Of a DNA stretch of 21,177 bases, positions 137 to 21,177 are shown in pieces. Every line of letters begins with the position of its first letter. Positions within the stretch are counted from its first letter, which is position 1. The position numbers and the translations under genes are program-made. Below the pieces are notes generated by a model, which did no database searches, was not told where the DNA came from, and saw only the letters and a program-made list of their open reading frames with translations. Source of the stretch: a bacterium (GTDB lineage: Bacteria > B130-G9); contig JAGHCW010000082.1 in assembly GCA_021160245.1 (NCBI GenBank), forward strand, positions 1 through 21,177, given 5' to 3'.

Positions 137-1561
137 ATGACACGAGTGTTGCTTGTCAATTATCATCAGAATCGCGGATTGAATCCGTATCACCCGGATA
201 GCGTCTCAAAGGTGACCGGCGCGTTTCCTCCGTTGGGGCTTTTATATCTCGCAGCGGTGTTGAAGCAGAGGGGTTTAGCCGAAGTCGAGGTTTATGACGC
301 GAACGTTGAGCGGGACGATGATGATACATTCAAGAGCAGACTATCCCAGTCCGGGGCTAATATCCTGGGCTTCACGTCCTCGACTTTCGAATGGCTAACG
401 ACCGTCGGCGCCGTCAAACTAGCGCGGGAGGTGTTACCCGAGTCGCTGATTGTGGTTGGCGGTCCGGCCGTGGGCGCCTATCCCGAGGAATGTCTCTCGT
501 TTGATGAAATCGATATAGGCGTGATCGGTGAGGGCGAGGTCACATTTGCTGAGATAGTTGCGCGGTTCAATGATGGCGAGCGTTTGCAAGGTATAGCTGG
601 GACGGTCTATCGAGACAATGGCGAGGTTCTCCTAGCCAGTCCGAGGCCATTTGTCTCAGACCTTGACAGCATTCCCTTTCCTGCTCGAGAGCTCGTTGAC
701 CGCGACGCCTATAGCGCTATCTTTATACGGAAGCCGTTTGCCACGCTGATAACCAGCCGTGGTTGCCCGTTTAAGTGCACGTTTTGTTCGCGCTTCTATT
801 TCGGGACGAGGGTTAGAAGCAGAAGCGCGCTCAACGTGGTCCAGGAGTTTGAGGAGTGCGCGGAACGTTTCGGCGTCAAGGAGTTTATGGTCTATGACGA
901 CACGTTCGGTGTTAATAAGAGAATAGCCCTTGACCTATGTAACCTGATGATAGAAAGGAAGCACAAGTTCCGCTGGAGCATACGGACTAGGGTAGATTGC
1001 ATCGACGCCCCCTTTCTAGAGAAACTCAGGAGAGCGGGATGCTTCAAGCTGCACATGGGCGTGGAGTCGGGCAGCCAGGAGATACTCGATCGGATGCGAA
1101 AGGGGATAACTGTAGAGCAGACGATAAGTGCTTTTGAGCTCGCGAACAAAATGGGAATGGAGACGGTTGGCTACTTCATGTTTGGCTACCCGGGTGACAC
1201 GCTTGAGACGATGGCGAAGACGAGGGAAATGTCACTTGGGCTGGCTCTTTCGTGGGCCGATTTCTCGATTACAACGCCCGCGCCGAGGACCGCGCTCAAC
1301 GACGAGTTCGTGCGAGCGGGTTACATTGACGGCGACTTTTGGCGACGATATACGTTGGGTCAGGCGATTGATAAGCTGCCGTATTTTACAACGCCGGAGT
1401 TCGATGAACACGACCTTGAGAGGATGCAGCATGACGCCTTCATACGATTTTACCTGCGGCCCTCCATCATTCTGAAGAAATTGACCTCACCTCAATTTTG
1501 GTTCGAGGCGAAGAAGTCAATTGGAGGCGCGCTTGCGCTTCTTAAGATGTGGCGCACGTGA
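137..1561 (+). CDS. B12-binding-domain radical SAM protein, substrate unknown
   Basis: Seen: a 474-residue protein with an N-terminal cobalamin-binding (Rossmann-like) region at about residues 3-150, marked by PPLGLLYLAAVL, VVGGP and IGEGE. The radical SAM core starts at about residue 204 with the Fe-S cluster motif CPFKCTFC (Cys210, Cys214, Cys217), and GVESGS and GYFMFGYPGD follow as expected for later core strands. Family knowledge: this is the BchE-like 'B12-binding radical SAM' superfamily, which does methylations, ring formations and other radical chemistry; the fold does not give the substrate. The start is ambiguous: TTG at 134 or ATG at 137, behind an AGGAGAG stretch at 118-124. I chose the ATG. 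It is the first complete gene of a plus-strand run, 77 bp before another B12/radical SAM gene. The specific reaction cannot be inferred. Confidence 0.9.
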   Translation: MTRVLLVNYHQNRGLNPYHPDSVSKVTGAFPPLGLLYLAAVLKQRGLAEVEVYDANVERDDDDTFKSRLSQSGANILGFTSSTFEWLTTVGAVKLAREVLPESLIVVGGPAVGAYPEECLSFDEIDIGVIGEGEVTFAEIVARFNDGERLQGIAGTVYRDNGEVLLASPRPFVSDLDSIPFPARELVDRDAYSAIFIRKPFATLITSRGCPFKCTFCSRFYFGTRVRSRSALNVVQEFEECAERFGVKEFMVYDDTFGVNKRIALDLCNLMIERKHKFRWSIRTRVDCIDAPFLEKLRRAGCFKLHMGVESGSQEILDRMRKGITVEQTISAFELANKMGMETVGYFMFGYPGDTLETMAKTREMSLGLALSWADFSITTPAPRTALNDEFVRAGYIDGDFWRRYTLGQAIDKLPYFTTPEFDEHDLERMQHDAFIRFYLRPSIILKKLTSPQFWFEAKKSIGGALALLKMWRT

Positions 1562-1638
1562 GCGTCACTTCTGGGATTGAGCTAGTAGAGCATCAGATTT
1601 GGCGTGCTATTCACGTCTATTGAAAACGGATTCGAGAC

Positions 1639-4368
1639 ATGATCAAACCAAACTCCTCGCTATCGCTTTCATCGCTTGACGCTGTCTTAGGAACGGTTGA
1701 GAGGCCGGGGCGATACAGTGGTGGCGAACGTAACATAGTAAAAAAGGACCTGTCCAGTGTCCTGCTGAAGTTCGCGCTTTGTTTCCCGGACACCTATGAA
1801 ATCGGGATGTCGCACCTTGGGCTTAGGATTCTCTATGACATCCTCAATGGCCGGGAGTTAACTGCCGCTGAGCGAGTTTTCATGCCCTGGAAGGACTTTG
1901 GGGATAGGCTACGTAGCCTCAACCTGCCGCTCTTCAGTCTGGAGAGTCGGCTGCCTCTTTCAGAATTCGACGTGGTGGGTTTTTCCCTTCAGCACGAGCT
2001 TTGCTATACTAACGTGCTTGAGATGTTGGAGCTTGGCGGCGTGCCGATTAGGTCCAAAGACCGTAGCGAGAGCGCGCCCCTTGTGATAGGAGGGGGCCCA
2101 TGCACGTTCAATCCGGAGCCGATGTGGGAGTTTTTCGACTTCTTTGTCGTTGGGGACGGCGAGAGAGCCATAGTCGAGCTGGCGAAGATGTTCGAGGACG
2201 TCAAGCGAGGCGATGGCGGTCGGCGGGAGATGATATCAAGGGCGCGCGAGATCGAGGGCGTTTATATCCCCTCCGATTATGAGATGGCGTATTCCAGAGG
2301 ACTTGCCACGAGCCTAACTCATCGAGGCGAGAAGTATGGAAACCCATTCGGGGCGCCAAAGGTCAAGCGGGCGATCATTGAAGATCTCCAAGAGGGCGAA
2401 TGCTCCCAGCGGTGGGTCGTGCCAAGCGCTTCTGTTATCCACGATCGCGCGGTTGTGGAGATCATGCGAGGTTGTTCCCGCGGATGCCGGTTTTGTCAGG
2501 CTGGGTTTGTTAATCGGCCGGCGAGAGAGCGCGACGCAAAAGATGTCGTGAAACAGGCCGAGAAGCTGGTAGCCGAGACGGGTTATGAGGAGATATCGTT
2601 TCTCTCGCTGTCTTCGGGCGATCATTCAGGTATTGAGCAGATTATCGGCGATTCCGCAAGAGCGCTGGAGGAGAGCAGAGTCTCGATATCGTTGCCGTCA
2701 CTTAGGTCTGAAACACTGACGCAGGCTATTGTTTGTGGCATCAAGAACGTCAAGAGGACGGGGCTAACACTTGCCCCAGAAGCTGGCTCGGACCGATTGA
2801 GGCGGGTCATCAACAAGCCCACAACGGATACGGTACTGATGAATTCACTTAAACAGGCTTTTGCCGCGGGCTGGAGGCGTGTAAAACTCTACTTCATGAT
2901 CGGCCTGCCGACCGAGACAGATGAGGATATCGAAGCTATCATTAAACTGGTTAGCAAGCTCTCCGGCGTGGCGAGGCAAGCGGGCGGTCGGGGGGCAAAG
3001 CTCACGGTTAGCGTATCGACATTCATCCCCAAGCCCCATACTCCGTTCCAATGGTGCGAGCAGCTCTCGCAAGACGAGGCACAGCGGAAGTTCTCTCGAT
3101 TAAACAAGGGGATAACATCTCGGAATGTGGAGTTTCGATGGCATAGCCCAAAAATGAGCTTCTTAGAGGGAGCATTGAGTCGAGGGGACAGATCGCTTTC
3201 TGTTGTTATTGAGCGAGCATTTCGATTGGGCTGCATATTGGACAATTGGAGCGAGGAGTTCGATTATGAGCGATGGATGGCTGCATTCGATGAGTGCGGC
3301 CTATCACCTCAATCGTATCTCAATGCGCGTGATACATCAGGGTTTTTGCCTTGGGAGCAGATTGATTGCGGTCTTTCTAGAGATTTTTTACTTGGCGAGA
3401 GAGAGCGCTCAGAGTCCGGGGAGTTAACGCTTGATTGCCGGAGGTCGGGAGAATGCACGGGATGTGGGGTCTGCGAGGACGCCTCGTCCTATTTGGCGAG
3501 TGCGAGTTTCGCTGCTGCTGCGGCGAGTGGCAAGTTGGAGGGGGGCGCAAGCGAGCGAGTAGGGATGCCTCTTTCGCGGCGGACAGCCGTGTCTCCGCGA
3601 CAGATCGTCTTCCCATTGAGGTGCAGGTTCGAACGTGTTGGGCCGGCGAAATATGTATCGCATCTGGATGCGCTGACGGCTCTTGGTAGGGCGATCAGGC
3701 AGTCCCTGCTGCCGATTGAGTACACGAAGGGCTTTAATCCGCAGCCGAGGCTCTCGGCCGGGATGCCGCTGCCCATCGGCTACGCGTCACTGGCGGAGTA
3801 TGTGGATTTCAAAGTCCAGAAGCCCGTCTCGCCTCATGAGCTGGTCTCTTCGCTGAATCCTTATCTAATGGAGGGGATTAGGTTTACGGTTGCGAGCCAT
3901 TTGGTTCAGAGGTCGCCCTCGCTCTGCGCTCTAGTTTCCGAGATGGACTACTCGGCGGTTTTGGACCTGAACCTACTCGCGGAGATCTTGGATGATAAGG
4001 ACTTAACGGACCTTAGTAGCGAGTGCTTCCATAGGGACAGGATCGAGCATTTTCTCGCAAGAGAATCCATCATTATCGAGAAGACGACACCCAAGAAGAC
4101 GACCAAGCTCGACCTTCGCGCCTTGCTGGGCTCGATGTCTCTTACGGAATGCAGGGACGGGCGCGCCTCGATTCGGATGATTCTCAAAGTTGACAGGAAT
4201 GGCAGAACCGCAAAACCCGACATGGTGTTGTCTGAGCTTTACAACATCACGGATGATGTGATGTACTTTGCTGATATAACAAGGCTTGAGCAGTACTGCT
4301 GGCGAGGCGGCAAACGAAGGAGTTTGCAGGAGATAGGAACGCGCGCGGGACTTTCAACTCAGCGCTAG
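1639..4368 (+). CDS. TIGR03960-type B12-binding radical SAM protein fused to DUF2344 (TIGR03936) domain
   Basis: Seen: 909 residues. The N-terminal B12-binding-like region carries FPDTYEIGMSHLGLRILY, GGGP and VGDGE (about 45-180). A radical SAM core follows with CSRGCRFC (Cys279, Cys283, Cys286), then TLAPEAGSDRLR and FMIGLPTETDED. A linker has three cysteines spaced C606-x2-C609-x2-C612 (ECTGCGVC) and is then Ala-rich. The C-terminal part, from about residue 655 (FERVGPAKYVSHLD, YTKGFNPQPRLS), is a DUF2344 domain. Family knowledge: TIGR03960 and DUF2344 proteins occur either as neighbouring genes or fused, in many anaerobes and deltaproteobacteria, often near RNase E/G or ribosomal genes; their function is not established. 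The length is consistent with the fused form. The CxxCxxC linker could bind a second cluster or metal (inference). The ribosome site upstream is weak. Confidence 0.93.
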   Translation: MIKPNSSLSLSSLDAVLGTVERPGRYSGGERNIVKKDLSSVLLKFALCFPDTYEIGMSHLGLRILYDILNGRELTAAERVFMPWKDFGDRLRSLNLPLFSLESRLPLSEFDVVGFSLQHELCYTNVLEMLELGGVPIRSKDRSESAPLVIGGGPCTFNPEPMWEFFDFFVVGDGERAIVELAKMFEDVKRGDGGRREMISRAREIEGVYIPSDYEMAYSRGLATSLTHRGEKYGNPFGAPKVKRAIIEDLQEGECSQRWVVPSASVIHDRAVVEIMRGCSRGCRFCQAGFVNRPARERDAKDVVKQAEKLVAETGYEEISFLSLSSGDHSGIEQIIGDSARALEESRVSISLPSLRSETLTQAIVCGIKNVKRTGLTLAPEAGSDRLRRVINKPTTDTVLMNSLKQAFAAGWRRVKLYFMIGLPTETDEDIEAIIKLVSKLSGVARQAGGRGAKLTVSVSTFIPKPHTPFQWCEQLSQDEAQRKFSRLNKGITSRNVEFRWHSPKMSFLEGALSRGDRSLSVVIERAFRLGCILDNWSEEFDYERWMAAFDECGLSPQSYLNARDTSGFLPWEQIDCGLSRDFLLGERERSESGELTLDCRRSGECTGCGVCEDASSYLASASFAAAAASGKLEGGASERVGMPLSRRTAVSPRQIVFPLRCRFERVGPAKYVSHLDALTALGRAIRQSLLPIEYTKGFNPQPRLSAGMPLPIGYASLAEYVDFKVQKPVSPHELVSSLNPYLMEGIRFTVASHLVQRSPSLCALVSEMDYSAVLDLNLLAEILDDKDLTDLSSECFHRDRIEHFLARESIIIEKTTPKKTTKLDLRALLGSMSLTECRDGRASIRMILKVDRNGRTAKPDMVLSELYNITDDVMYFADITRLEQYCWRGGKRRSLQEIGTRAGLSTQR

Positions 4369-8898: not shown

Positions 8899-9153
8899 TC
8901 AGCTCATGGAATCCTTTTTGCCGGCTGACCTGAACAAGTCTTTGATAGGCGTGGCCGGCGACACAGAAGCAATAGCGTGTTTGAAAACCATTTGCTGGTT
9001 TGAGCCCGCGTCCAGTATGATCGTGAACTTGTCGAATCCCTGAATGCGCCCTGAAAGCTCAGTCCCATTGGCTAGAAGAACAGTCACTGGGATGTTCTGA
9101 GTCCTAGCTATATTCAGAAAAGTGTCCTGCAGGTTAATTGGGGGCGTTGCCAT
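8899..9153 (-). CDS. hfq: RNA chaperone Hfq
   Basis: Role: hexameric Sm-like protein that binds sRNAs and A-rich mRNA sites, promotes pairing and influences decay. Seen: 84 residues with NLQDTFLN (the proximal-face Gln9), the Sm1 segment VTVLLANGTELSGRIQGFDKF, and Sm2 MVFKHAIASVSP with the Hfq-specific KH pair (Lys58, His59). The rim region reads IARTQN, with one Arg in place of the Arg-rich patch (RRER) of E. coli, so a weak rim surface is expected (inference). There is almost no C-terminal tail. Start: a longer frame opens at 9234, but the Hfq fold begins at ATG 9153, and CGAGGA lies 6 nt upstream of it, so 9153 is preferred. It follows the DUF401 gene on the same strand after a 160 bp gap and converges with lnt. 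Confidence 0.96.
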   Translation of the reverse strand: MATPPINLQDTFLNIARTQNIPVTVLLANGTELSGRIQGFDKFTIILDAGSNQQMVFKHAIASVSPATPIKDLFRSAGKKDSMS

Positions 9154-9205
9154 CGTAGTCCTCGTATCCGAAATCACAGAGCTTGTCAAAAGCACAACTG
9201 TAGCA

Positions 9206-9234
9206 ACATTAGGGCAAGCGAAGCCCGGTTGCAA
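9206..9234 (-). promoter_or_regulatory. Candidate sigma-70-type promoter for hfq
   Basis: Reading the minus strand, TTGCAA (9234-9229) and TAATGT (9211-9206) are separated by 17 nt and lie about 50 bp upstream of the hfq ATG. The match to the -10 consensus is only partial. A TTGACA also occurs at 9189-9184, but its -10 would overlap the ribosome site. hfq could instead be read through from rnr and the DUF401 gene. Confidence 0.3.
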
Positions 9235-13446: not shown

Positions 13447-14886
13447 CTAGACCTTTGACTTTGCGGCGACCTCGACTCGGTTCTTGCCCTCGCCTTTTGC
13501 CTGAGCAAGTGCCTTATGTGCAAGGGAGACCAGCTCCTCCTTTTGATCCGCGTGCTCAGGATAGGCTGCAAGACCGATGCTGACAGTAACATCCTCGCCG
13601 GAGTTACTTACCGACAAGAACTTATGTTTCTGGATGCTCTGCCTCAGCTTGCCAGCAACTACGTTACCCTCCTCGGATGTGATGTTCGGAAGAAGCGCCG
13701 CAAATCGATCCGCTGCATAACGGGATAGAGTGTCGACCGGCGTGATATTCGACGAGAGTACTTGTGATACTTCCTTAACAAGCTCCCCGCCTGCATCTCG
13801 ACCAAGCTTCTCACACATATCATAATAGCTGTCGATGTCTATTATTAAGAGGCACATCGGCGTACCGAATCTCTCACCTCGTTTAATCTCACGGTCCATC
13901 ATCGCATCGAGGTATTTCGTGTTGTAAAGGCCGGTAAGATGGTCGGTAGTTGACATCTCCTCGATCTGTGTCTTTAAGCGCGCGTTTGCGATCGCCAGGG
14001 CTGCGCAATCCGCAAAAGGTGAGATTAGTTCGATGTCAGTGTCAGAGTACACGGAATCATCCGTCCTGTTGACCAGCTGTAGAATGGCGACGACTTGCCC
14101 CGAGTAGATGAGTGGAACGCAAAGCATGGACCTGACCCTCAAGCCCAGAATCGCGTCGAGCGCCGGATCGAAATCCTCGTCATCTCTGACGTCCTCCATG
14201 AAGATGGCAGACATGGTCGCCACGGTCTTTCCCAATATGCCTTGGCCCTTTGAAAAGCGAGGCGCATCTTCGCCCATTATGTTGCCGGTGACAATGTTGA
14301 AGACCATTTCACCAGTGTCCGGCTCGATCAGCACGCCGTTCCATGCCTGTGACGGGACGATCCCACGTATGCTCTCAAATAAGCCCTTGAGTTTCTCGTC
14401 AATTGGCTGCCGCTGTGTAAGCAGGTGGCCGGCGCGAGCGTATATGTCGATCTCCGCCTCAAGCAGCTGGAGTCGCTCCTGCATTTTCATTGCTGCTGAT
14501 TTCAGCGCCCAAGTTGAGAGGAGTCGCCTGACGAGTATAAGAAACTCATCGTTCTGATAGGGCTTGTTTAAGTAATAGAACTCCTTGAATCGTAACGTCG
14601 ATTTTAGCTGGCGGTACGTCGACTCTGCGGACATTACGATGACCGGCATCTCTTGCACGTAGCTCTGTAGCCTTTCAATGAGGTCCTGAATAGACGGATT
14701 TATCGTTACGATATCTATTAAGATCAGGCCGATGTTGCCTCGTTTCAATTTGAAAAAGATGTCATCTACATCCGAGATGATCTCCATACCAATGCCAGTC
14801 TCTCTCAGGATGTCGATAACAGCATTGCCCGGGAACAACGGATCGCCTATCAGAGCCACCCTGTGATCGATTAGTTCATACACCAC
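13447..14886 (-). CDS. Receiver-GAF-GGDEF protein with degenerate (probably inactive) GGDEF site
   Basis: Seen (479 residues from GTG 14886): an N-terminal receiver-like domain (about 8-123) with possible phospho-acceptor Asp58 (LILIDI) and Lys108 (NKP); a helical linker; a GAF domain (about 150-305); and a C-terminal GGDEF-fold domain (about 314-475), recognisable from TDHLTGLYNTKYLD, LLIIDIDSYYD and VTVSIGLAAYPEH. The signature GGDEF reads AADRF (391-395), the preceding inhibitory-site RxxD reads TPVD, and the substrate-contact NDxxG region is also altered. Diguanylate cyclase activity is therefore unlikely; a c-di-GMP or nucleotide sensor, or a protein-protein role, is more plausible (inference). 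Start: AAGGAG (14900-14895) is 8 nt before GTG 14886 but only 2 nt before the more upstream TTG 14892. The gene is monocistronic with its own promoter. Confidence 0.9.
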   Translation of the reverse strand: MVYELIDHRVALIGDPLFPGNAVIDILRETGIGMEIISDVDDIFFKLKRGNIGLILIDIVTINPSIQDLIERLQSYVQEMPVIVMSAESTYRQLKSTLRFKEFYYLNKPYQNDEFLILVRRLLSTWALKSAAMKMQERLQLLEAEIDIYARAGHLLTQRQPIDEKLKGLFESIRGIVPSQAWNGVLIEPDTGEMVFNIVTGNIMGEDAPRFSKGQGILGKTVATMSAIFMEDVRDDEDFDPALDAILGLRVRSMLCVPLIYSGQVVAILQLVNRTDDSVYSDTDIELISPFADCAALAIANARLKTQIEEMSTTDHLTGLYNTKYLDAMMDREIKRGERFGTPMCLLIIDIDSYYDMCEKLGRDAGGELVKEVSQVLSSNITPVDTLSRYAADRFAALLPNITSEEGNVVAGKLRQSIQKHKFLSVSNSGEDVTVSIGLAAYPEHADQKEELVSLAHKALAQAKGEGKNRVEVAAKSKV

Positions 14887-14929
14887 GCCCAAGTCTCCTT
14901 AAAATCTCTCTTTTGCTCATGTCATGTTC

Positions 14930-15523: not shown

Positions 15524-15582
15524 GTCTATATATGTCTTCATAGTTTCGGATTTATTCGAATAGGAACAGTTAGGAGGAGACG

Positions 15583-18500
15583 ATGTATCGAGGCACGAGC
15601 AGGCTGTATGTGCTGTTTGCTGTTGCTCTGATGGTGTTGTGCGTGGGCTCTTTTGCGAGAGCTGCTCTCCCTGTGGAGACCAATCCCTCGTGGCATTCGA
15701 CTGACCAGCTTCGTAGCTATGATGTTGAGTGGTACTTCGCGACCGCGGGAACGGTCTATCCAGATTTATATACTGCAAACATCGACGGTGAGCTGGTCGT
15801 TTATCAGAACTCGAAGGTTGACCCCATCGAGATAGCGACGGACCCGACCGTTATGTTGTCAGTAAGCCCGAATGCGATTGACATCGATTTTGGCGACTTT
15901 GACGGCGATGGATACAAAGACATGGCCCTTGTTCTCGACAGCGGCCTTGTTGAGGTTTACCGCCGCCCACCAACGGCAACGACCGCCACAAATTGGACGC
16001 TCGAATGGCAGTCATGCCAGATTCCGACCGCCAATACGACAAAGGTCAAGTGGGCAGATGCAGATGGCGATGGCAATATGGACCTCATTACAATCGGCGA
16101 CCCGGACTACGTAAAAGTGTACTACAGTGATGGCATTGCAACGTTCAGAACTAACTCAGGTTGCGATGACTATCCCGACTGGGAGACGCCATCCTCATAT
16201 CCCGCGCTCTCTATCGATGTTGGCGACGTCAACGGGGACACCTATCCTGATTTCGCGATCGGAACAGGTGACGGCAATCCTCTTTATATGTTCTTATTCG
16301 ATTACCGTCTAGGCTCGAGGGGTTACTACATCCCCGATCCTATCTGGCAATCAACAGGAACTCCCATTACGCGGGGCGTCTTGCTGCGCGATTTCGACAA
16401 GGACGGCAAGCTCGATCTTGCCGCTGGTAACACGGGTGATCCGGCCTGGATATTTGTCAATAGAGACGCCTACCCGTGGTACCCAGAATATCCGGACTGG
16501 GAGTCTGACGCTTCGAATTACACTTACGACATCTGCGCCGCCGACTTCGACGTGGATAGCGACAACATCTCTCTTGACAACGACCTTGACCTGGTTGAGG
16601 GTAACTTCGCTCAGGCGGATGTAATATATCAGAACAACACGACCACTATCGGTGTGTTGGAGATGACGACAATTCCGGCGTGGACCTCCGATTTCGCAAC
16701 AGGGGAGACGCTCTCCCTTGCCTGCGCGGACATCGGCGAGGACTTAAACAACGCGACCTATCCAACGATAGACCCGGAGCTCGCCGCTGGCGGCTGGGAC
16801 CAGTTCAATGTTATATACATGAACTACTCGGAGCTCGGGCCATATCTGGACAACCAGTTCCCGACGGATAGCTCGCTCTGCCTGAATCTGGAGGCAGACT
16901 GGACGTTGCCAGGATTTACAGCCTGCGGAACTGACGCCAACATCTACTTCGAGGTTTGGACTGCCGCTCCAGGCGCATCTATCACCTCAATCAAAGTTTA
17001 TGTGGACGCCACGACCAGCACGATGCAAGAGGTTACAGGCAGCGTGGCGACGGTCTCCGTAACCTACGAAGGTATTCCGGGAAGATACTGGCAGTGTGCC
17101 TACAACGACCCGAATAGCTGGAATTGGGGCGATTACGTCTATGTCCGAGTTGAGGCGACAGATAGCAATCTGGGCTTCAGGACCCTCAATTACTGGTTCC
17201 ATATAATGGACGACATAGAGCTCGTCTCCACCGATCCATCGGACGGTGAGATCTCAGCGCCTCGTTCGCAATTCAGTTATGTCCTTGCGAACACCTGCGG
17301 CACGATCGACACGGCTTACTCCTGGCTGGAGTGGACGGGCCCGTGGGGGCCGACGTCCGCCACATTGACCTTGCTGTCGATAACCGGTGGCCCGGCGCAA
17401 TATACAGTGCTGTTTGAGACTGAAGACGGCTTCCCTCTTGGCCCAGGCTATTATACTTGGCGTTTCTACGGGACGGATGATCAGGGGCGTGATTACGACT
17501 TCACCTCAACCATCCACTTCTGGATACAGGGCGGCGTATGGCCCCAGTTTAGACAGAACCCGCTTCACAGTGGAACGAGTCTCTATCCGGCGCGTATGCC
17601 ATGTCCCTCCCGCAGGTGGGAGTATCCTGCGGTTTCAGGTACGAGCGATATACACGCGTCTCCTGTCAAGGACAGTTGGGGCAATGTTTATACAATTGAC
17701 ACGCTGGGCGAGCTTTACAAGATAGCCTCAGACGGAACGCTCGTTTGGTCGAAGCAAACAGGAGGCCTGGCCTCTGAGGCTCGTTGGGCGCCGGTTTTAG
17801 GCCCCACGGCGACGAACAACACAATCGTCTTTGTGCCACTGGGAGACCAGGTAAAGGCCTTCGACGCCGCAACCGGTAATGAGCTGGCTGTCTATGATGT
17901 AAGCGGTGCTGGCAACATCATTATGTCATCTCTGTTGCTGTTCCCTGAGGGCGGCGACTGGTTGCAGCCGAGAATCGCATTCGGCACAACCTATGATGTA
18001 GCTGCCGACAACTTCTATATCCTCGACGCTGACCCAAGTAATCTTCTCGTTGAGCTCTGCGCGCTCGAGATTGCCGGTCAGTATATCCACTCGACTCCAG
18101 CCGTTGACCCGACGGGCGCCTTCCTTTGGGTAGCTACCGATTGGGGCGAAGTGCACAAGATCGATATTACGGGCTGCGCGGTCGATTCCACGTTCGTTGC
18201 GGAGGACTTCTCCGGCATAGCGGATGCGATTATTGAAGGCAGTGTTGCGGTTGCGACCGACGGCTCCGTCTTCTTTGGCGACGATTCCGGCTGGTTCTTC
18301 AAGATCGGCTCGGACGCCACGATCGGCACCGATGGTTGGTACAGCGAGACAGGCGACTCTATTCACACCTCGCCTGCTCTCTTCTCCACAGGCGCAACGC
18401 TTTGCGTAGCTTACGGAGACAACTTCGGTACATTGTGGGTGTTCGGCGCCTATCAAACCACTACAGCAGTTGCGACGACCTCATGCCTCTTCCAAGCCGG

Positions 18501-21177
18501 ACCGCGGGCTGGCGGTGGTTCCGCCATCTTCCACGGCAACGGTATATCGGTGTCGGGCGATGGCTATCTCTATTTCGGTTCTGAGAATGGCTTCATTTAC
18601 TGTGTGGACGCCACGCAGGGCGACTTCAGTTACGATCACGATCTTTGGAAGATGCTTCTCGGCGCCCATGTGCGGAATACGCCGGCCATTGGCTATTATG
18701 GCGAGATAGATGTTTGCGCAACTACTTCTCCGCCGAATCCTTATGGTATCGTAGTTGAGATCATATCTGACTGCGACGCGCCAATGACCGAATGCTTGTC
18801 TTGGGACGATCTTGCCCTCGACCATACGAATGCAGCGACCTTTGATTTGAACTACACCGGTATAGACGTCAAGTCTGGTATCGAGTCGATTGACTTCTAC
18901 AGGAAGGCTAAGAATGGTGGCGTGTATGAGTTGATAGACACCGTCTATCCGCCGCTGCCGGGTTATTCCGTAAGTGGCTCTTACAACACGGCAATTGCTA
19001 CGGAAGGAACCTATTACTTCTACACGATAGGTCACGACAGGCGCGAGCCAATTGCCAATGACGAGGCGGCCCCCGGCGTTCAGGATTGTGAGATCACTTA
19101 TGACATCACTACCCCTGAGGCGACTTGTAGCACAGTTGCCGAATGGACGAGCACGGAAGCGACATTGGCCGTCTGCTACACCGCTTGGGACCCGACCACA
19201 GCGACTACCGATGTTTCGGGACTTGCGAGCGTCAAGTTCTACACCCAGTTCATGGCGAGCGCTTGTGGCGCAAGCTGGGGTGGCTGGCAAGAGCAGAGCA
19301 CGCACGCTACGACGTTCACGGCGGGCACCGATCAGGTCTCAGATTGTATCGATTACATGCTGCCAACCGAGGGTTACTATCGCTTCGCGTTCATCGCTGC
19401 CGACCATGCTGGCAACGCGATGGCGGAGCCGCCGGCGACATCTTGCAGCACCACAGTTTGGGACTGCACCGCCCCTGAGTCTGATACTCACGGTGGCGCA
19501 TATACGAACAACCCGGTCATCCACAGGGATTATTGGGCAAGCGATGACGTGACTGGCCTCGACCAGGTTGATCTATACTACTGGTATTCGAATGACGGCG
19601 GCGCGAGCTGGTCGCCCTTCACTCACGCTTATACCGTCCAGACGGACACCGATGGGAATGACCCATCTGACTGCTTCTGGGCAAATGACGAGTGGAGTTT
19701 TGACGTAACCGCCATCGGAGAGGGCATCTATAGATTCGTCACAATTGCGACGGACAACATCGGCTTGGTCGAGACGTTCCCTGTCGATCACAACGAGATG
19801 CCTTACTACCAAGTCTATTACGACTTCCACAACCCAGAGACCTGGGCGATTGTCGATGGATACCATTGGGGTCCTGACACCAACTGCCCGGCGACTTGCG
19901 AGACCATCACGGTCAGCTTTGATTCCACGTTCCCCGAGCCTGGTGGAAGTGGACTTGAGCAAGTAACGCTCTGGTGGAGACTCCAGGAAGATTGCGATCC
20001 TGGCATGGGCTGGACGGATTGGACTGACACGCTTACTGACGCGATTACGACAAGCACGTTGTCCGTGCTGACGACAGGGACTTGGTACTTCCCGGCTGCT
20101 ACGGTTGGAACCTACCAGTTCTACACAATCGGCGAGGACTTCGCGCTTAACAAAGAAGATGTGCCAAATGCTGACCCAGACCTCTGTGCTGACGACGAGG
20201 CGATGTACGAGAACATACCGCCAGAGACGGAGGCCTACACGGAGCCTTATGGCCAGGATAACACCTGGGTGAACGGACCAACCGAGATAGGCCTTTATAC
20301 CTGGGATGATCCAGGCACATGCTCAAGCGGCATCGCGACTGTGGCGTCGTTGATGAAGTATGAGGGCGGCGCGACTTGGTCCACCATTTCTGGGCTTATG
20401 ATCCCGACCGACAGCACGGTCTTCTGGACGCCGTCACCGGCTTGGGAAGGCCTCTACAAGATTCTGAGTAACGCTCAGGACAAGTCGGACAACTGGGAGT
20501 ATCACAACCTAGGTGATATGCCCGTCGCGGGAGATGATGAGTTCATCTACGATGTGACGAACCCGGTGGCTACGCTCACTTGCGTAACGCCTCCATATCT
20601 TTCCTCCCCGGCGACGCTTTCGTTCGACTACACGGACGAGAACGCTAGTATCACGACAGTTGCTGGCATGGATTACCTGCAGCTTTGGGCAAGGGAGCCG
20701 GACGGCACGCTGCATCTGGTGGCGACAAATACGACGATCTACGGCGAGACGGGTCCGGGCACAGATGCCTTCACGGACTTCCTGCCACCATTTGAGGGTG
20801 TATTCGGGCTATATACGACCGCCTTTGACAGGGCCGGCAATGTTGAGCCTGGCGCTGCCACTGAGTGCTCGGTAACCTTCGATTGGACGCTGCCGACATC
20901 GACGATAGGAAGCGTCGCTCCGACAATCGCAACCATGGAGTTCGATTGCATTGAGATATCCTTCATCGCAACGGACGCGGTTAGCGGGATTGACGAGGTC
21001 CACCTCTTCTATCGTTATACGGAAGACGGTGGTGTGACTTGGGAGCCGGCGACTACCGGGACATGTGGCTGGAGAGACTATGGCCTCGATGTGCCTGCTC
21101 AGGTCTTCTACGGCTATGGCGCCACGTCAGCGACCGGCGCCTTCAACTTCTGCTTCGACGACCTGCTGAATGGGGAC
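15583..21177 (+). CDS. Giant secreted FG-GAP / PQQ-propeller / Ig-like repeat protein, 3' end beyond window
   Basis: Seen: an uninterrupted frame of 1865 codons running off the window edge, preceded by AGGAGG (15572-15577) 5 nt before ATG. A signal peptide (residues 1-27; Arg7, hydrophobic core VLFAVALMVL, cleavage after ARA) indicates Sec export. Domains in order: (i) seven FG-GAP/VCBS-type motifs, residues about 45-415; (ii) two Ig-like stretches, about 435-650; (iii) a PQQ-type propeller from WPQFRQNPLHSG at 653 to about 1061; (iv) six complete Ig-like repeats and part of a seventh, 1067 onward. The protein is Asp/Thr/Trp/Tyr-rich with many paired cysteines, suggesting disulfides outside the cytoplasm. 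Two propellers plus an Ig stalk suggest a surface adhesin or carbohydrate/protein-binding role, but no catalytic motif is visible. The C-terminal anchor or sorting signal (T9SS, dockerin, LPXTG, membrane helix) is not in the window. It is the only gene in its transcription unit here. Confidence 0.93.
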   Translation, partial: MYRGTSRLYVLFAVALMVLCVGSFARAALPVETNPSWHSTDQLRSYDVEWYFATAGTVYPDLYTANIDGELVVYQNSKVDPIEIATDPTVMLSVSPNAIDIDFGDFDGDGYKDMALVLDSGLVEVYRRPPTATTATNWTLEWQSCQIPTANTTKVKWADADGDGNMDLITIGDPDYVKVYYSDGIATFRTNSGCDDYPDWETPSSYPALSIDVGDVNGDTYPDFAIGTGDGNPLYMFLFDYRLGSRGYYIPDPIWQSTGTPITRGVLLRDFDKDGKLDLAAGNTGDPAWIFVNRDAYPWYPEYPDWESDASNYTYDICAADFDVDSDNISLDNDLDLVEGNFAQADVIYQNNTTTIGVLEMTTIPAWTSDFATGETLSLACADIGEDLNNATYPTIDPELAAGGWDQFNVIYMNYSELGPYLDNQFPTDSSLCLNLEADWTLPGFTACGTDANIYFEVWTAAPGASITSIKVYVDATTSTMQEVTGSVATVSVTYEGIPGRYWQCAYNDPNSWNWGDYVYVRVEATDSNLGFRTLNYWFHIMDDIELVSTDPSDGEISAPRSQFSYVLANTCGTIDTAYSWLEWTGPWGPTSATLTLLSITGGPAQYTVLFETEDGFPLGPGYYTWRFYGTDDQGRDYDFTSTIHFWIQGGVWPQFRQNPLHSGTSLYPARMPCPSRRWEYPAVSGTSDIHASPVKDSWGNVYTIDTLGELYKIASDGTLVWSKQTGGLASEARWAPVLGPTATNNTIVFVPLGDQVKAFDAATGNELAVYDVSGAGNIIMSSLLLFPEGGDWLQPRIAFGTTYDVAADNFYILDADPSNLLVELCALEIAGQYIHSTPAVDPTGAFLWVATDWGEVHKIDITGCAVDSTFVAEDFSGIADAIIEGSVAVATDGSVFFGDDSGWFFKIGSDATIGTDGWYSETGDSIHTSPALFSTGATLCVAYGDNFGTLWVFGAYQTTTAVATTSCLFQAGPRAGGGSAIFHGNGISVSGDGYLYFGSENGFIYCVDATQGDFSYDHDLWKMLLGAHVRNTPAIGYYGEIDVCATTSPPNPYGIVVEIISDCDAPMTECLSWDDLALDHTNAATFDLNYTGIDVKSGIESIDFYRKAKNGGVYELIDTVYPPLPGYSVSGSYNTAIATEGTYYFYTIGHDRREPIANDEAAPGVQDCEITYDITTPEATCSTVAEWTSTEATLAVCYTAWDPTTATTDVSGLASVKFYTQFMASACGASWGGWQEQSTHATTFTAGTDQVSDCIDYMLPTEGYYRFAFIAADHAGNAMAEPPATSCSTTVWDCTAPESDTHGGAYTNNPVIHRDYWASDDVTGLDQVDLYYWYSNDGGASWSPFTHAYTVQTDTDGNDPSDCFWANDEWSFDVTAIGEGIYRFVTIATDNIGLVETFPVDHNEMPYYQVYYDFHNPETWAIVDGYHWGPDTNCPATCETITVSFDSTFPEPGGSGLEQVTLWWRLQEDCDPGMGWTDWTDTLTDAITTSTLSVLTTGTWYFPAATVGTYQFYTIGEDFALNKEDVPNADPDLCADDEAMYENIPPETEAYTEPYGQDNTWVNGPTEIGLYTWDDPGTCSSGIATVASLMKYEGGATWSTISGLMIPTDSTVFWTPSPAWEGLYKILSNAQDKSDNWEYHNLGDMPVAGDDEFIYDVTNPVATLTCVTPPYLSSPATLSFDYTDENASITTVAGMDYLQLWAREPDGTLHLVATNTTIYGETGPGTDAFTDFLPPFEGVFGLYTTAFDRAGNVEPGAATECSVTFDWTLPTSTIGSVAPTIATMEFDCIEISFIATDAVSGIDEVHLFYRYTEDGGVTWEPATTGTCGWRDYGLDVPAQVFYGYGATSATGAFNFCFDDLLNGD
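15757..16830 (+). repeat. Protein-level FG-GAP/VCBS repeats: seven blades of a predicted beta-propeller
   Basis: Seven related motifs of the form (P/L/K/M)-D-(L/M/F)-x-x-G/x occur with their acidic residue at 61, 113, 167, 223, 278, 336 and 399 (spacing 52-63 residues). Five have an EF-hand-like calcium loop before them: DFDGDGYKD (105), DADGDGNMD (159), DVNGDTYPD (215), DFDKDGKLD (270) and an expanded DFDVDSDN loop (321). The count of seven and the spacing fit one integrin-alpha-like seven-bladed propeller. Confidence 0.8.
17539..18765 (+). repeat. Protein-level PQQ-like beta-propeller repeats
   Basis: The segment opens with WPQFRQNPLHSG, a common entry motif of PQQ-like (WD40-like) propellers in large secreted proteins. 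Blade-like units follow: SPVKDSWGNVYTIDTLGELY, VPLGDQVKAFDAATGNEL, STPAVDPTGAFLWVATDWGE, SPALFSTGATLCVAYGD, GDGYLYFGSENGFIYCVDA and TPAIGYYGEIDVCAT. There is no dehydrogenase catalytic motif, so the fold is probably structural or ligand-binding. Confidence 0.75.
18781..21177 (+). repeat. Protein-level tandem Ig-like repeats (six complete, one cut by the window)
   Basis: Repeat boundaries are marked by a D-x-T-x-P-like motif with its proline at residues 1067, 1178, 1298, 1418, 1547, 1661 and 1771, giving units of 111, 120, 120, 129, 114 and 110 residues. Each unit has a G-(L/I/M)-x-x-(V/I/L) segment (VSGLASVKFY, VTGLDQVDLYYW, VSGIDEVHLFYR) and a later EG-x-Y-x-F segment ending in AxDxxGN (TEGYYRF...ADHAGN, FEGVFGLY...FDRAGN). 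The repeats are diverged at the DNA level. Confidence 0.85.

Follow-up and report, generated by a model that had tools for sequence, protein, structure and literature searches.

The analysed window, a stretch of 21,177 bp, is the whole of contig C66 of the host genome G000, which comprises 3,430,261 bases in 244 contigs. GTDB phylum B130-G9, to which the host probably belongs, has been described as Candidatus Cuxufiota with three genomes of 2.27-3.43 Mb (PMC11382960); a search for literature on the phylum returned nearly nothing. The 3′ part of the window is occupied by a giant open reading frame (ORF) of 1865 codons that contains no stop and runs off the contig end. The earlier note had described this ORF as a giant unterminated exported protein, and this description was borne out by a strong ribosome-binding site (AGGAGGAG) in front of the ATG at 15583, by a Sec signal peptide, and by a stop-free ortholog in another genus (G003). 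The ortholog displayed a matching signal-peptide layout (MNRGSSK...GARA, cleaved before AI) and was the sole return of a scan of the genome contigs. Since it is 68% identical across residues 1-657, we consider the reading frame to be genuine. Upstream of the giant gene lies a divergent receiver/GAF/GGDEF-like gene, which is also found in G003; its GGDEF motif is degenerate (AADRF and TADRF, with AADRF in the window). An Hfq-like ORF was recognized from sequence further upstream. The features are listed in Table 1.

The earlier note had proposed to extend the sequence past position 21177. When this was done, the gene was found to carry on in contig C77 of the same genome, which begins about 2 bases past the window end, and to stop there after 2241 additional codons. 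C66 and C77 were compared for a shared, exactly matching stretch of DNA at their ends, and none was found. The junction is bridged by contig C245 of G003, a 4,522-bp contig that consists of a single open frame. Its first 110 residues matched the last residues of the window with 72% identity, and from residue 112 it matched C77 from base 2 onward with 68% identity over 1396 residues. C245 and C255 of G003 also showed no exact overlap; this pair overlaps with several mismatches. Two independent orthologous C termini (G003:C255 and G001:C108) were 54-56% identical over the last 652 residues. Judged from these alignments, the window ORF and the C77 frame are one gene encoding about 4,107 residues, with a predicted mass of 448 kDa and a pI of 4.05. 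The full chain comprises, in this order, a signal peptide, an FG-GAP propeller, two linkers, a PQQ-type propeller, 19 Ig-like units, two Big_3_5-like domains, a C13-like domain, one further Ig unit, and a C-terminal domain (CTD) directly in front of the stop.

Table 1. Features of the giant gene, its surroundings, and related heads in the host genome (residues refer to the joined protein)
Feature	Residues	Position	Strand	Basis
Hfq-like ORF		8899-9234	-	sequence
Receiver/GAF/GGDEF-like gene		13447-14892	-	
Ribosome-binding site AGGAGGAG		15572..15579	+	read upstream of ATG 15583; strong
Giant ORF, window part	1-1865	15583-21177	+	open frame
Sec signal peptide, cleavage between ARA and AL	1-27	15583..15663	+	sequence
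FG-GAP/VCBS-type beta-propeller	28-423	15664..16851	+	Pfam FG-GAP_3 and structure model
Two linker domains	424-650	16852..17532	+	low-confidence model, ortholog alignment
PQQ/BamB-type propeller, starts WPQFRQNPLHSGTS	651-1061	17533..18765	+	Pfam, profiles
Stalk start, six complete units plus most of a seventh	1068-1865	18784..21177	+	repeat profile
Giant ORF, C77 part		G000:C77:2-6724		open frame to stop
Whole stalk, nineteen Ig-like units	1068-3220			repeat profile
Two Big_3_5-like domains	about 3455-3647			
C13-like domain	3648-3875	on C77		structure model comparison
CTD, about 120 aa, beta-rich	3984-4107	L049:6356-6721 (G000:C77)		extreme C terminus
Lipoprotein-like gene, 160 codons		L049:6740-7222		
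PQQ propeller heads		C162, C86, C241		own genome
Subtilase heads		C202, C118		own genome
C25 gingipain-like peptidase heads		C17, C195		own genome
Beta-helix head		C23		own genome
FG-GAP and PQQ-like heads together		C234		own genome

The HMM searches proposed in the earlier note returned matches to FG-GAP_3, PQQ_2, Beta-prop_ACSF4, and Big_3_2. FG-GAP_3 matched the first propeller in four stretches (E value of 9e-13, 49 bits, cut-off of 26.9). An AlphaFold model of this region reached a pLDDT of mostly 55-80, and its residues 1-396 superposed on integrin alpha (Z of 29.6), CRTAC1, WD40, and seven-bladed propellers with Z scores of about 29-30; CRTAC1 was singled out by both Foldseek and the profile search. 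The head had been described as a seven-motif FG-GAP propeller. Seven is a generous count: about five DxDxD-like acidic loops are readable, although the model does superpose on seven-bladed propellers. The linkers are 60% identical in the ortholog and are probably Ig-like beta-sandwiches; the low-confidence model contains beta strands in their second half only. For the second propeller, Pfam returned PQQ_2 (PF13360; E value of 1e-7, 32.2 bits, cut-off of 27.6) and Beta-prop_ACSF4 (E value of 5e-9). A profile built from alignment A7 matched PQQ propellers and BamB structures in the PDB with very low E values; PQQ-like, BamB, and designed propellers were its strongest matches, and dehydrogenases matched more weakly. 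Mixed alignments of both propellers placed PQQ fragments onto the FG-GAP region; therefore, the model was built from alignment A6, in which the PQQ part was represented by a single sequence. In this part the pLDDT was 20-50 and the propeller was not resolved, so that its assignment is based on the profiles, by which residues 651-1061 are classified as a PQQ/BamB-type propeller. Of the proposed double propeller, the FG-GAP half was recovered in the structure model and the other half as profile matches.

Within the window, the stalk gave a weak Ig-like match to Big_3_2 (E value of 9e-5). The repeat profile defined a period of about 113 residues and 12 further units in the C77 portion, which extends the growing Ig-like array of the earlier note to 19 units. 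Stalk units also matched Big_13 (E value of 4e-15) and OmpL47-type repeats (97 bits, above the cut-off). Reading the protein as a head, a platform, and a stalk is therefore fair, given an FG-GAP propeller like those of integrin alpha and CRTAC1, a PQQ/BamB-type propeller, and 19 Ig-like units. At least 20 ORFs in the same genome carry the Ig stalk and/or the CTD with other heads (Table 1). Because these kin swap heads, we regard the window protein as belonging to a set of head-stalk-CTD proteins with interchangeable heads. The combination had been called uncommon, and this holds in part only: a PQQ propeller with an Ig stalk occurs in at least five proteins of the same genome, FG-GAP and PQQ-like heads meet again in the protein on C234, and giant proteins pairing propellers with Ig arrays are known from nanohaloarchaea (PMC10266531). 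The host genome also contains 16 matches to C25 (gingipain-type) domains, on C17, C83, C118, C195, C226, and other contigs, several of them with Ig stalks and a CTD. In G001, a 6033-codon open frame with a missing 5′ end (L036; G001:C84:1-18099) combines several PQQ propellers with Ig units and CTDs in tandem.

The protein ends in ...NIMGEGATAAMDLQP, followed by the stop. Up to the stop, the C terminus showed neither an LPXTG motif with helix and charged tail nor an evident membrane helix. Pfam scans of both halves returned no dockerin and no cohesin, and Por_Secre_tail (TIGR04183) was absent from the giant protein and from its genome. A single Por_Secre_tail match was seen in G003 only (L128; G003:C226:3233-3472), possibly due to contamination of the bin. 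Neither Pfam nor NCBIfam yielded a model that the CTD matched above threshold (weak matches to DUF11 and NEW3), its profile found weak matches only in the PDB (best E value of 0.009), and the structure models left it unresolved. The earlier note had expected the C terminus to decide between a cell-surface anchor and a released protein. It matched neither outcome; in place of a recognized anchor or type IX secretion system (T9SS) tail, it comprised an uncatalogued domain and, near the base, an unforeseen pseudo-protease domain. These two are the new parts of the protein.

Each of the four phylum genomes contains at least 15 confirmed copies of the CTD (58-196 first-look candidates), and ten or more occur in four other lineages. 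Among 59 stop-terminated ORFs of the phylum, 53 have the CTD within 15 residues of the stop, and five of the remaining six have it right behind the signal peptide. It is C terminal in 18 of 21 ORFs of the four other lineages. Because CTD matches were its starting point, the survey informs on the position of the domain and not on its overall abundance. Further loci include L116, L115, L127, L140, and L148, and dozens of exported proteins carry the domain. Directly downstream of the giant gene lies a lipoprotein-like gene without a Pfam match, which is kept in G001 and G003; the gap to the stop is about 15 bases or less in the host genome and in G001 and is close in G003. Past it, two genomes carry lpxK in the opposite orientation. 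The neighboring lpxK and lnt genes fit, by annotation from sequence, a diderm host with lipopolysaccharide. The type II secretion system (T2SS) secretin GspD was detected in all four phylum genomes, in three of them above the cut-off, and a search for SprA gave no match in the four genomes, with the controls being equally silent.

These observations suggest that this uncultured, diderm bacterium exports a head-and-stalk protein to its cell surface, and we hold the full mechanism outlined here to be somewhat more probable than any departure from it. The Sec signal peptide would move the chain through the inner membrane. Passage through the outer membrane would probably involve the T2SS; this is a guess based on the occurrence of GspD. 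The CTD would then retain the chain on the cell surface or act as a sorting tag, and the co-encoded lipoprotein may be the partner of the CTD. With an assumed 4 nm per domain, the 19 Ig-like units would space the propellers about 70-80 nm off, where the two N-terminal propellers may bind a surface, a polymer, or a neighboring cell. An adhesive or scaffolding protein on the cell surface is the most likely role; we infer its retention, its ligand, and its export route. We propose only tentatively, and with more doubt than confidence, that the CTD is a previously undescribed C-terminal module for sorting or surface attachment. In B130-G9 (Ca. Cuxufiota) and in at least four further bacterial lineages, it would display a range of exported proteins (propeller giants, subtilases, and gingipain-like C25 peptidases), possibly via the T2SS and a partner lipoprotein. 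Alternatively, the whole chain could be released as an extracellular matrix or polymer-binding scaffold, with the CTD as a mere structural cap. The C terminus without evident membrane helix, LPXTG, or known sorting tail would suit release, as would the T2SS secretin, the resemblance of the CTD to generic beta-sandwich domains in its weak DUF11/NEW3 matches, and the five ORFs with the CTD just after the signal peptide. However, the strict end position of the CTD over diverse heads and in other lineages suggests more than a cap, and the co-encoded lipoprotein is conserved. We therefore consider release unlikely, albeit a serious possibility.

The C13-like domain surfaced only by structure comparison; a phmmer search of this part against the PDB gave nothing useful, and PF01650 (Pfam C13) had no match in the giant protein or in its genome. 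The model (pLDDT of about 60-80) matched legumains, caspases, and CHAT over about 180-200 residues with Z scores of about 14-17 (15-16 for legumains, 17 for CHAT). In three orthologs, the catalytic His is replaced by Glu or Gln and the Cys by Asn or Asp, so that the C13 catalytic pair is absent. A distant homolog from another lineage (G142) has kept both His and Cys and matched PF01650 just under the cut-off (E value of 1.2e-4). A dN/dS of about 0.11 between G001 and G003, the only pair for which the ratio was usable because dS was saturated between genera, indicates purifying selection, and we conclude from it that the fold is maintained. As modeled, the domain is a legumain/caspase fold without the dyad, and going by its sequence, catalysis is not expected. 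Instead, it may serve as a binding or structural module near the base of the protein. It is very unlikely that the domain still processes or autocleaves with an unusual active site, making the protein a protease or one that is cut from its base: the clan CD fold, the strong purifying selection, and the numerous C25 peptidases, also of clan CD, in these genomes would allow it, but both catalytic residues are lost in all three orthologs. A 2197-codon frame in another genome (L107; G267:C230) contains several C13-like domains with differing dyad states, apparently without a full dyad. Least probable of all, to the point of being nearly negligible, is that the window gene ends in unassembled sequence and C77 belongs to a paralog. 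The lack of an exact overlap, the roughly 2 bases absent between the contigs, and the ease with which Ig repeats misassemble could suggest this, but the single open frame of G003:C245 runs from a match to the window end into one that begins at the first codon of C77, and paralogs are just 30-40% identical.

With the end of the open gene now fixed, the window protein can be seen as one of a large group of modular giants exported by a phylum that has hardly been studied. Should the CTD prove to be a sorting signal, it would provide a handle on surface building in several uncultured phyla, whose secretomes would become predictable from sequence.

Several parts of the protein resemble known systems. 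The FG-GAP head is like those of CRTAC1 and integrin alpha in both sequence profile and fold, with about five readable acidic loops in the window propeller. The second propeller is like PQQ-like and BamB-type propellers by profile match; BamB, however, is a lipoprotein of the BAM complex, whereas the propeller of the window lies within a giant exported chain. The stalk units are of the same kinds as those of bacterial Ig-array adhesins (Big_13, Big_3_2, and OmpL47 type), but the window protein has propeller heads and no RTX or LPXTG end. Bacterial pseudo-orthocaspases have already been reported to lose the His-Cys dyad (PMC6426788). They and legumain-like C13 peptidases share the clan CD fold with the domain described here, which differs from pseudo-orthocaspases in being C13-like and not p20, in the replacement of the dyad by Glu/Gln and Asn/Asp, and in being situated in the basal part of a giant surface protein. 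T9SS substrates are similar in that one C-terminal domain is shared by a variety of otherwise unrelated exported enzymes, C25 peptidases among them; the CTD differs from Por_Secre_tail and, as a sorting module, would be analogous to the T9SS tail yet unrelated to it. In overall layout, the window protein is also like SVXNc_0300, a nanohaloarchaeal SPEARE-type protein of 9,409 aa for which a role in adhesion has been proposed (PMC10266531). Both have a Sec signal, N-terminal propellers (two PQQ-like ones in SVXNc_0300), and a long tandem Ig array. SPEARE-type proteins end in a membrane helix and a VirB4/TraG-like ATPase, whereas Pfam detected no ATPase in the window protein, which is bacterial and combines its stalk with an FG-GAP head, a C13-like pseudo-protease, and the CTD.
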